A stretch of DNA of 64,000 bases from Virgibacillus sp. SK37 (GTDB lineage: Bacteria > Bacillota > Bacilli > Bacillales > Amphibacillaceae). Positions 43,594 through 47,028 of the stretch are shown piece by piece (the stretch's first letter is position 1; every line of letters begins with the position of its first letter). The stretch covers positions 1,659,911 to 1,723,910 of the forward strand of contig NZ_CP007161.1 in NCBI RefSeq assembly GCF_000725285.1, in the 5' to 3' direction. Made by a program: the position numbers and the translations under genes. The notes below the pieces were generated by a model, which saw nothing but the letters and a program-made list of their open reading frames with translations, did no database searches and had not been told where the DNA came from.

Positions 43594-43628
43594 AACCGAA
43601 CAATCAACATTTGATTGTTCGGTTTTTA
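43594..43628 (+). terminator. Rho-independent terminator downstream of secDF
   Basis: AACCGAACAATCAA and TTGATTGTTCGGTT form a 14-bp perfect stem with a T-tract, 90 bp after the stop. Confidence 0.92.
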
Positions 43629-43693: not shown

Positions 43694-44178
43694 ACTGCGA
43701 CGTAACTGTAAGTATTGTAAATTACTGTTTCTAAAAGGTACACTACTAAAATATATTTTAATACGTTTTGATGATCATCAACCGCCATTGATTTACATTA
43801 CAGATGAACGCTTTCACACCTCCGGGTACAAGTGCGACATCTGTTCGTGGCCTCACAGTGTCTTCTTTGCCGCCGGCATGGCCTCAGCCACTTCCTCCGC
43901 TACGCTACGTGCAGGGTCTTCAGCTCATGCTATTCCGGCAGGAGTCGTCATCTTCCATTCCAATCAATTGGAATGGCTTTTCTATTTTAAAGAGCTAGAA
44001 TACAGTCTTTAGCGGAGGGGAAATATGTAGACTCCAGCGGGAAAAGCGAGACTAGCGAGACCCCACAGAACGGAACGTTAGTGAAGTTCGAGGAGGCTCG
44101 CAGGCCGCCCGCGGAAAGCGGAATATTTCCCCGTAGCGGCGACTTACGCAGCCTCTATATTTTTAATTAGGTCGCAGT
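43694..44178 (+). mobile_element. MITE-like element, copy C
   Basis: This 485-bp element starts with the perfect TIR ACTGCGACGTAACT (43694-43707) and ends with AATTAGGTCGCAGT (44165-44178; 12/14). Left-half blocks CACCTCCGGGTACAAGTGCG and GCTCATGCTATTCCGGCAGG match copies A and B. The right half (GACTCCAGCGGGAAAAGCGA to GCCTCTATAT) matches copy A's left half in complement, including CCGCTACGGGGAAATATTCC. About 190 bp near the left end is AT-rich and diverged. It fills most of the secDF-lapA gap; no gene is supported in 43504-44309. Confidence 0.84.
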
Positions 44179-44309
44179 TTCCTCCTACTGTGCCGTAAAT
44201 ATGTGATAACGATTATAGCCCAGTATTTGCAAGGGAGTATTATACTTTTGCTTAAAACATGCTTAATAAGGGTAAATAATGTAAAAGATAAAATATGAGG
44301 AGGGATAGG

Positions 44310-44636
44310 ATGAAAGGACAGTCGTATGTTATTTTAGCTATTGTCTTTATCATAGTTGTAGCGATTTTCGCAGTTAGTAATGTAGAAGCAGTGGATGTAA
44401 ACTATATATTTTGGACTGGAAATTCACCTCTTATCTTAGTGATCTTATTTTCAGTCTTAATGGGTGGAATTATAACTGCTGCTGTAGGAGCTGTAAAGGT
44501 ATTTCGATTACAGAGAGAACTGAGAAGATATAAGCATGAGAATAGCCTTATGGACAAAAAGTTGCAAGAAAATGGTTTAACTATTGAGAAGAGAGATAAA
44601 CATTCTAAAAGTGTCGAAGATTCTACAAACAAATAA
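44310..44636 (+). CDS. LapA-domain (DUF1049) membrane protein
   Basis: The 108-residue protein begins MKGQSYVILAIVFIIVVAIFA, has a second membrane segment (LILVILFSVLMGGIITAAVG) and a cytoplasmic helical tail (VFRLQRELRRYKHENSLMDK). This is the LapA_dom pattern; B. subtilis has YrvD at the same place before recJ. GAGGAGGGA stands upstream of ATG 44310. LapA-domain proteins in enterics act in lipopolysaccharide assembly; the Gram-positive role is unknown. Confidence 0.88.
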   Translation: MKGQSYVILAIVFIIVVAIFAVSNVEAVDVNYIFWTGNSPLILVILFSVLMGGIITAAVGAVKVFRLQRELRRYKHENSLMDKKLQENGLTIEKRDKHSKSVEDSTNK

Positions 44637-44653
44637 TCTGTAAATAATAGTAT

Positions 44654-44698
44654 TTGCCACCCCTGACGCTCTTTTGTATAATAGATTAGTCAGGGGTG
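44654..44698 (+). promoter_or_regulatory. recJ promoter enclosed in a hairpin that covers the recJ Shine-Dalgarno
   Basis: TTGCCA (44654-44659) and TATAAT (44677-44682) are 17 bp apart, with a predicted start near 44689. CACCCCTGAC (44658-44667) and GTCAGGGGTG (44689-44698) form a perfect 10-bp inverted repeat whose right arm contains the recJ ribosome-binding site AGGGGTGA. A transcript from this promoter lacks the left arm; read-through RNA from lapA has both. Confidence 0.7.
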
Positions 44699-44703
44699 AA
44701 CTT

Positions 44704-47028
44704 ATGTTAGAAAGTAAGGCAACATGGAAGCATAATGAAATGAATGAGACAAACATTGACTGGATAGATAGCTCCATTAATGTCTCTCCTATTGTTCAAG
44801 AGCTTCTATTCCAAAGAGGTATTACGGAAGGGAATCAAGCATTACGATTTCTCTCCCCGGATTTAAATGATTTACATAAACCAATTGGTCTTCTATCTAT
44901 AGATAAAGCGGGTAAAAGAGTAAAAGAGGCTATAGCTAAGCAGGAGAAAATTCTTGTTTATGGCGACTATGATGCCGATGGGGTAAGCTCTACTACTGTT
45001 TTACTGAAAACCTTGCAAGAACTAGGTGCCAATTGTGATTATTATATTCCGAACCGTTTTACAGAGGGATACGGCCCTAATGAAGATGCTTTTAGGTTAG
45101 CACATGATAATGGGGCAAAACTGATTATCACTGTAGACTGCGGCATTGCTTCCGTCCAAGAAGCATTAATTGCTAAAGAGCTAGGTATGGATTTGATAAT
45201 CACAGATCATCATGAGGTACAAGAGAAGATGCCAGACGCTTATGCCGTCATACATCCTAAATGTTCGCCGGATTATGCTTTCCCGGAATTGGCAGGGGTT
45301 GGCGTCGCCTTTAAATTTGCCGAACATTTACTCGGCTACTTTCCTAGTCATCTTTTAGAATTTGTTGCAATTGGTACGATAGCTGATATGGTCCCACTTG
45401 TCAGTGAAAATCGTATTCTTGCATTTCATGGATTAAAATCACTCACTACTACAACAAATCCAGGTATTAAGGCATTGAAAGGACGCTGTAACATAGAAGG
45501 TAATGTCACGGAGGAGGATGTAGGATTTTTAATCGGTCCCCGTATTAATGCAGTAGGTAGACTTCAAAATGCAGATTTGGCAGTACAACTACTGATGACA
45601 GAGGACCAGGAAGAAGCGGCCTATATTGCCGAAAAAATTGATTCTATTAACGTTGAGCGACAACGAATTGTCAATGATATTGTAAAAGAAGCTGAGGCAA
45701 TGGTTAATACAACTGGTAGAAAAGGTATTATTGTTGCTGCAAAAGAAGGATGGAATGAGGGAGTATTAGGTATTGTAGCTTCTAAGCTTGTTCGAAAATA
45801 TGACCGCCCTGCTATTGTTTTGGCTGTGAAGCCGGAAACATCAGAAGTGAAAGGTTCAGCGAGAAGTATTCCTGCTTTTGATTTATTTAAAAATTGTATG
45901 AAAGTAAGGGAACTGTTCACACATTTTGGGGGGCACGCCCAAGCAGCTGGTATGACATTACCAATGGATAATCTCGACCAATTACAAGAGGAATTAAACC
46001 ATATTATTGACAATCAGCTTACTGAAGAAGACTTCAGACAAGCTATTGAAATAAGCCAGAGCATCTCAGTAAAAGATATAAGTGAGACGTTAATTAACGA
46101 TATTGCGCGTTTAGCTCCTTTTGGAATGAAAAATCCAAAACCTGTATTTCATCTAGCCCATGCTCCATCAGATGTACGGCAAATTGGCAGTAAAAAGAAT
46201 CACTTAAAACTTCAATTTAAAGAGGAACAGGTTAATCTGGAGGGGATTGGTTTTGGATTTGGGCATCTATACCCTTTATTTACACCGAACACCCCTGTCT
46301 CTATCGTAGGTGAGTTGGGTATAAATGAGTGGAATGGGTTAAAAAAACCACAGATTGTTTTGCAAGATCTGGCAATAGAGGAATGGCAGTTATTTGACTG
46401 CCGCGGAAAAAAAGATGCTGATGTGTCTCAATACATCTCACTAACTAACCATAATTTAATCGTACGTAATAATAATGAACAATACTTACCTGGAATCAAT
46501 CAGATTACCTATCAAGAAATTGGAACTGATTTGCCACCGATAGATACACTGTACATCTTAGATCTACCTGAATCGCTTGATGAACTAAAAGAATTGGTTC
46601 AAATTACCCGACCAACTAACATTTACGCTGGTTATCACATAGAAAACAGTGTTTACTTAACATCATTTCCAACTAGAGAAGATTTTAAGTGGCTTTATGC
46701 CCTGTTGTTGAAAAGAAAACAAATCAACATGAAAACAGAGTTAATTGAACTTGTGCAAATGAAAGGATGGTCAAAGGAAAAATTGGTATTTCTTTCAAAA
46801 GTGTTTTTTGAATTGGAATTTGTTAAAATAGAAAATGGTATCATTACCGTTGTGGAAAAGCCAGCCAAGAAAGACTTGAGTGAATCTAAAATATATCAAA
46901 AGAGACAGTATAAAGCTGAAATGGAAAGATTACTATATTATTCAAATTATGAAGAATTGAGAAACTGGTTCATACAATGTATGGATTATGTAGATAGCCC
47001 CAAGGAGGAACTAGCTCATGGATTATAA
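44704..47028 (+). CDS. recJ: Single-stranded-DNA-specific exonuclease RecJ
   Basis: RecJ is a 5'-3' exonuclease for recombination and mismatch repair. ATG 44704 gives 774 residues. Motifs of the DHH family are [23 protein letters not shown] at 168-170 (LIITDHHEV), the region [10 protein letters not shown] and [12 protein letters not shown] of DHHA1. A C-terminal extension of roughly 200 residues is typical of Bacillus RecJ. It overlaps apt by 11 bp. Confidence 0.97.

Follow-up and report, generated by a model that had tools for sequence, protein, structure and literature searches.

A promoter nested in a Shine-Dalgarno-covering hairpin upstream of recJ in Virgibacillus sp. SK37 and other Bacillales: a probable silencer of read-through RNA

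Gene order and features of the recJ locus

The window (the whole 64,000-nucleotide stretch analysed) carries, in this order, secDF, a terminator-like hairpin, a lapA-like gene, recJ, apt and a relA-like gene. Names for secDF, apt and the relA-like gene are what we take them to be from their sequences. The features are:

43594-43624, plus strand: terminator-like hairpin, 14 pairs followed by a T-rich tail, between secDF and the lapA-like gene
44250-44275, plus strand: SigB-type promoter GCTTAA-N14-GGGTAA of the lapA-like gene, a likely source of read-through
44310-44636, plus strand: lapA-like gene (LapA_dom, PF06305), upstream neighbour of recJ
44654-44659, plus strand: recJ -35 box TTGCCA, sharing its last two bases with the left arm
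44658-44667, plus strand: left arm CACCCCTGAC, inside the promoter and present only in read-through RNA
44677-44682, plus strand: recJ -10 box TATAAT, in the hairpin loop
44688-44689, plus strand: predicted transcription start, 6-7 nt after the -10, placed from the promoter position
44689-44698, plus strand: right arm GTCAGGGGTG, covering the Shine-Dalgarno sequence (SD)
44692-44699, plus strand: recJ SD AGGGGTGA, with the ATG at 44704
44704-47028, plus strand: recJ, single-strand DNA exonuclease, with domains DHH, DHHA1, RecJ_OB and ssDNA-exonuc_C

The lapA-like gene is co-directional with recJ, and by its position its RNA could run into recJ: its stop codon (44636) lies 17 nt from the recJ -35, and 67 bases separate it from the ATG. 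An earlier note on this DNA had placed the recJ promoter within a perfect 10-bp inverted repeat whose right arm contains the SD, and both points were confirmed: the arms are 10 nt long, 100% complementary and 21 nt apart. In the stem the SD pairs with bases upstream of the start predicted for recJ's own RNA. The leader could form a duplex of -12.3 kcal/mol with a 16S tail.

The sigma-A promoter of recJ (TTGCCA-17 nt-TATAAT) displayed 11 of 12 consensus letters and tied for the best score among the 12 promoter-like sites of a 3-kb stretch. Shuffled sequences contained 9.5 such sites on average, so the promoter scan by itself proves nothing. Terminator-like hairpins in the same 3 kb were likewise near expectation (two found, 1.9 expected from shuffles).

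The SigB-type pattern had its sole match in the window at 44250-44275, with 0.04 expected, and a SigB gene is encoded in the window genome. The motif is clear in near relatives as well, a similar one preceding lapA in V. halodenitrificans, and the script pattern, applied without a chance control, matched 31 of 140 lapA upstream regions. SigB was rejected on this count as a general reason for the hairpin; in the window genome, insulation of RecJ from stress-induced read-through is its likely, inferred purpose. B. subtilis yrvD is presumably located directly before yrvE/recJ and presumably corresponds to the lapA-like gene. It belongs to a core list of 146 SigB-controlled genes, in a paper whose main text contains neither recJ nor yrvE (PMC7824861). 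For B. cereus, YrvE (RecJ) is listed in a table that deals with how SigB and Bc1009 affect the protein profile (PMC9912610).

Two further observations concern the neighbourhood. An interspersed repeat occupies 44015-44165, between secDF and the lapA-like gene; it has 42 matching stretches in the genome, itself included, of which 14 are 92-100% identical over most of its length, the others being shorter or mostly 74-79% identical. The apt start codon overlaps the recJ end (47018-47028). Judging from this overlap, apt may be coupled to recJ translation, and silencing of recJ could lower apt too.

Folding and chance controls in the window genome

RNA spanning 44640-44720 folded at -27.1 kcal/mol (z -5.04), and none of 200 dinucleotide shuffles was as good, while a transcript from 44688 was of ordinary structure (z -0.22). 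Opening the SD was calculated to cost 18.1 kcal/mol in read-through RNA versus 0.7 in RNA starting at 44688. The proposal in the earlier note that recJ's own RNA would leave the SD free and read-through RNA would fold over it is thus supported in silico.

Background values were obtained from 424 kb of the genome (the window plus 18 further stretches), with 324 script-called genes having an SD. Promoter-like sites nested as at recJ were encountered in 31 of these genes. Considering SD pairing alone, recJ was within the top five; considering the duplex between promoter spacer and leader, it was the strongest (-22.3 kcal/mol), the next gene reaching -12.1. When only the spacer of the window was shuffled, the observed pairing was reached in none of 200 trials. 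The exact element was present once in the genome. A covariance model run against the same genome returned a confident match only at recJ (E 1.8e-18; next match E 0.1). The idea of a regulon of such hairpins was rejected from this search together with the searches of other genomes given below.

Conservation across Bacillales

RecJ searches gathered 218 recJ upstream regions, 190 of them distinct and representing the window's family plus 46 other families of the order (47 Bacillales families). For the window's family 146 genomes were searched, part of which were fetched, and 127 loci with a -10 entered the tests. Eleven loci from covariance-model searches brought the total to 201.

Promoter and arms were retained in most of the 190 distinct regions. 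A nested -10 matching at least five of six positions was found in 194 of the 201 loci. Arms were called weak when weaker than -14 kcal/mol, a cut that was set by us, as were the terminator thresholds used below; a cut at -12 and a continuous test agreed. Loss of the left arm in close relatives had been named in the earlier note as evidence against the hairpin. The nearest named relative found, V. halodenitrificans JCM 12304 (RecJ 90% identical), keeps both arms, and in the window's family the arms were strong in 116 of the 127 loci having a -10. At the recJ gene of V. halodenitrificans JCM 12304 (L002 3501-5821) the RecJ match fell into two pieces that overlap (residues 1-110 and 101-774), and the length they span is not a multiple of three; this apparent frameshift is either real or made by the assembly.

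Across 189 loci, the mean probability of an unpaired SD was 0.12 in read-through RNA versus 0.63 in recJ's own transcript. It was below 0.3 in read-through RNA at 172 loci and above 0.6 in own RNA at 124. Against dinucleotide shuffles of the 50 upstream nucleotides, z -2 was reached in only 118 of the 189 loci. The mean cost of opening the SD in read-through RNA was 14.4 kcal/mol in loci free of an intergenic terminator and 6.4 in loci with one; in own transcripts it was about 2 kcal/mol. One locus (L056) displayed a differently placed stem, in which CCCTCC pairs with GGAGGG of the SD region (by eye).

Beyond the order, the covariance model also gave RecJ-associated matches in four genomes (L233, L236, L239 and L244), which suggests that the element is older than the order.

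Covariation and exchange of arms

The right arm varied between families (e.g. GTCAGGGG, GGTCAAGGGG, GGTTGAGGGG and GGTTAAGGAG) and the left arm changed to match. MAFFT alignments misplaced some rows, and one of them was used only to seed the covariance model. Out of 100 loci given to the model, 81 matched on the recJ strand at E 0.05; the 19 loci without a match were left out of the pair counts. In the resulting alignment of 85 matches, four rows of which were antisense matches of the palindrome, two-sided changes occurred at all 14 pairs. Two-sided cells numbered 93, compared with 44.8 in shuffles, and the covariation score was 0.267 versus 0.181; neither value was attained in 500 shuffles, and slid versions scored 0.013-0.132. 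The proportion of paired cells (74.6%) was little above that of column shuffles (68.5%), and the version slid by +2 equalled it with 75.9%, yet on 435 cells versus 1164.

Because the model alignment leans to structure, an alignment-free swap test was used in addition. It comprised one locus per family from 48 other families of the order and the class and included the 11 loci from model searches. Own arms paired at -18.0 kcal/mol, compared with -13.7 and -13.6 for swapped arms, and were better in 39 and 32 of the 48 families (p 4e-8 and 2e-4). For the 127 loci of the window's family the values were -20.2 for own arms and -17.9 and -17.8 for swapped ones. Of the 190 loci, 96 have the window's spacing; their 89 distinct sequences, taken as a gapless, unfitted set, displayed 85% paired cells versus 37-56% when slid.

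Decay of the arms

Decay of the arms was expected at loci with an intergenic terminator or without lapA, because read-through should be absent there. A script looked for terminators in the interval from the upstream stop to the -35 at 183 of the 190 loci, giving 27 loci with and 156 without; the 11 loci from covariance-model searches were not included. Weak arms were found in 20 of the 27 terminator loci but in only 10 of the 156 terminator-free loci (Fisher p 7e-14), mean arm energies being -11.6 and -20.9 kcal/mol, respectively. The effect was similar in the window's family (9 versus 118 loci) and outside it (18 versus 38 loci). It held for the medians of families other than the window's (17 with a terminator, 31 without; p 4e-5) and for independent contrasts on a tree of RecJ from 74 full-gene loci (r 0.39, p 0.0007), on which parsimony counted 11 terminator changes and nine weak-arm changes. 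In genera holding both kinds, terminator loci were weaker-armed in five of six; genus g11 differed by only 0.3 kcal/mol, its sole "no terminator" member being L028, whose terminator was missed. The promoter spacer paired better than its own shuffles in 5 of 27 terminator loci versus 136 of 156 terminator-free ones.

The -35 was not lost together with the arms. TTG was kept in 17 of the 20 weak-arm terminator loci, and four or more of the six letters in 19. Conservation of the left arm for the promoter's sake was rejected on these grounds. So the left arm appears, from this comparison of loci, to be kept for pairing and not for the promoter, mainly where a silent read-through RNA would be useful.

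A slight difference in the -35 itself was also seen: it matched the consensus more closely in the 27 loci with a terminator (mean 4.3 of 6, 25 loci at four or more) than in the 156 terminator-free loci (mean 3.9, 121 at four or more), which looks as if hairpin duty costs promoter strength.

Loss of lapA had a comparable effect. In the window's family no lapA hit was found within 900 nt in 8 of 127 loci; at six of these the secDF end was found upstream, its stop 140-275 nt before recJ. Weak arms occurred in six of the eight lapA-less loci versus five of the 119 lapA-bearing ones (p 2e-6). The two tests share three loci (L154, L170 and L177), which are three of the eight lapA-less ones.

Seven loci without a -10 of at least five of six letters (L013, L037, L047, L050, L075, L118 and L215) were left out of the terminator test. 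A terminator was called in L037 and in none of the other six. Counting all seven as weak-armed would change the proportions to 21 of 28 and 16 of 162. Their SD was not hidden in read-through RNA (mean unpaired probability 0.48 in the six scored, versus 0.11 in the 183; p 9e-5). In six of the seven, lapA ends 26-60 nt upstream and no terminator was called, as if recJ in such loci relied on lapA read-through.

Some loci ran contrary to the pattern. Strong arms were kept in seven of the 27 terminator loci, e.g. L083, with a terminator 61 bases before the start; some of the terminator calls among strong-arm loci may not be real terminators. Weak arms were displayed by the 10 terminator-free loci mentioned above, several of which lie behind a long upstream gap, lack a lapA hit or have a terminator that the script overlooked. 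Among the last is L028, counted as terminator-free although two terminators are visible by eye, a count that thus stands against the present reading. At L183 the arms are strong although no lapA hit was found. Overall, the upstream stop was at most 100 nt from recJ in 138 of 183 loci, and 131 of those 138 had strong arms.

The terminator between lapA and recJ in L204 (ACCCTTGATACACTTTGTATAATAAGTGTGCCAAGGGT followed by a T run, about 155 bases before recJ) contains TATAAT and looks related to the recJ hairpin; the terminator of L154 has similar arms.

Proposed mechanism and alternatives

The comparison of loci strongly supports an interpretation in which the element would act as a silencer of read-through RNA built into the recJ promoter; we put the probability of this reading at about 0.8. 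The nested sigma-A promoter would give a message beginning at the right arm, with about 15 leader bases, in which the SD is free and RecJ is made. RNA entering from the lapA-like gene would carry the left arm too and form a 10-bp stem over the SD, and little or no RecJ would be produced from it. RecJ levels would then be set by the gene's own promoter and insulated from transcription of the neighbour, which in the window genome has a SigB-type stress promoter. Arms, conservation, covariation and decay are observations; from them we infer the start site, the translation block and the SigB-driven reason.

That the hairpin serves mainly as transcription terminator of the lapA-like gene, ending read-through rather than blocking ribosomes, is improbable. 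The exchange with ordinary terminators fits this reading as well as it fits a lock on the SD, and a run of at least four T within the last nine bases before the start codon was found in 22 of 194 loci from 13 families. The other 172 loci lack such a run, however, and the window, with AACTTATG after the stem and a long loop of 21 nt, does not have the short-looped stem and U run of an intrinsic terminator. The terminator scan of the 3 kb allowed loops of 3-8 only, and its silence at the recJ hairpin is no evidence either way. In the 22 loci with a T run the hairpin may also stop transcription. More generally, when the loci are compared, the silencing hairpin and the terminator appear to be two solutions to the same need.

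A DNA operator, with a dimeric regulator bound to both arms and repressing recJ, would account for the perfect symmetry and for arm centres that in the window are 31 bp apart, about three turns. The letters of both half-sites should then be conserved, but the arms displayed matched changes between families and many G-U pairs; decay of the arms with a terminator or with lapA loss is not predicted by an operator either, and the genome has the element at a single site. We regard this reading as very unlikely. Equally unlikely is cleavage of lapA-recJ RNA at the stem by RNase III or a similar nuclease, with the recJ portion degraded or released as the outcome: although the stem is stable in read-through RNA, it is short for RNase III, and neither the SD as pairing partner nor the absence of the stem from own transcripts would be explained.

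Returning to silencing of read-through, we consider it likely that the 50-nt unit of promoter, ribosome-binding site and insulator is evolutionarily interchangeable with a terminator, the two seldom occurring together, and that the lock is dropped when recJ loses its own promoter. If this is true, bacteria would safeguard the dose of a housekeeping gene by keeping unwanted RNA from being translated, a strategy both ancient and widespread, and searches for structured RNA would overlook elements having one arm outside the gene's own message. The comparison of loci indicates that the silent state is maintained by selection chiefly at loci where read-through can be expected. This makes recJ a testable case of a gene that yields both a readable and a silent messenger. 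Should this be confirmed, operon predictions and RNA-seq levels would mislead about recJ in many Bacillales, and synthetic constructs could use the compact unit as a gene insulator. The question is also raised why RecJ must not follow its neighbour, which is apparently under stress control in the window genome.

Relation to known systems

Read-through RNA of the IS10 and IS50 transposase genes folds and hides the transposase start signal. The recJ element would be alike in hiding a start signal in read-through RNA; the insertion sequences differ in that the structure lies at the ends of a mobile element and serves another purpose.

Closest in architecture is I-TevI of phage T4, where long upstream transcripts form a hairpin over the ribosome-binding site while a promoter immediately upstream of the gene gives transcripts too short for it; such sequestration is reported there for other T4 genes, soc and e among them (PMC2988022). 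As at recJ, the promoter is inside the sequestering hairpin. The T4 cases are phage genes with late promoters and a timing purpose, whereas recJ is a host housekeeping gene with a sigma-A promoter, is widespread in the order, and uses its -35 and spacer as an arm of the stem. For sigG of B. subtilis, a related bacterium, it is proposed that a large hairpin prevents read-through RNA from spoIIG from being translated; this hairpin is unable to form in RNA from the sigG promoter (PMC5942855). Read-through RNA would again be silenced and own RNA free. The sigG gene is developmental, its stem has 20 or more pairs and the block is called proposed in that paper; the recJ element, in contrast, is a compact unit of 50 nt with evidence from covariation and terminator exchange.

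The mechanism is thus already known from T4 and proposed for sigG, and the recJ hairpin is a new, widely conserved case, unusual in combining a housekeeping gene, wide spread and exchange with terminators. No publication on a recJ read-through hairpin was found in the literature searched. In two papers on new structured RNAs recJ is absent from the main text; another mentions it only in connection with an archaeal S15 leader.

Occurrence beyond recJ

Rfam yielded no match overlapping the hairpin in 44200-45000; three weak matches elsewhere were all on the other strand and below the gathering score. The covariance model matched in 128 of 199 genomes of the order and, at E 0.01, in 35 of 299 genomes of the class, tallies that are not counts of recJ elements because some matches lie outside recJ. 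No RecJ was found in 10 of the 29 loci taken from the class-genome matches (L223-L251). Nine further short stretches gave a weak RecJ hit in four cases and none in five. Inspection by eye of 13 non-recJ matches uncovered no full promoter-in-hairpin unit before a gene; many were plain stem-and-T-run terminators.

Two matches outside recJ deserve description. L243 (1501-1532) is a long palindrome free of mismatches, CCTGACCCCTTTAGTATAATAAAGGGGTCAGG, whose centre resembles TATAAT and whose flanks extend it. L245 (1501-1592), from a genome of another order, displayed an SD-covering hairpin, in which ACCCCTATAC pairs with GTATAGGGGT, before an unrelated ORF of 80 residues.
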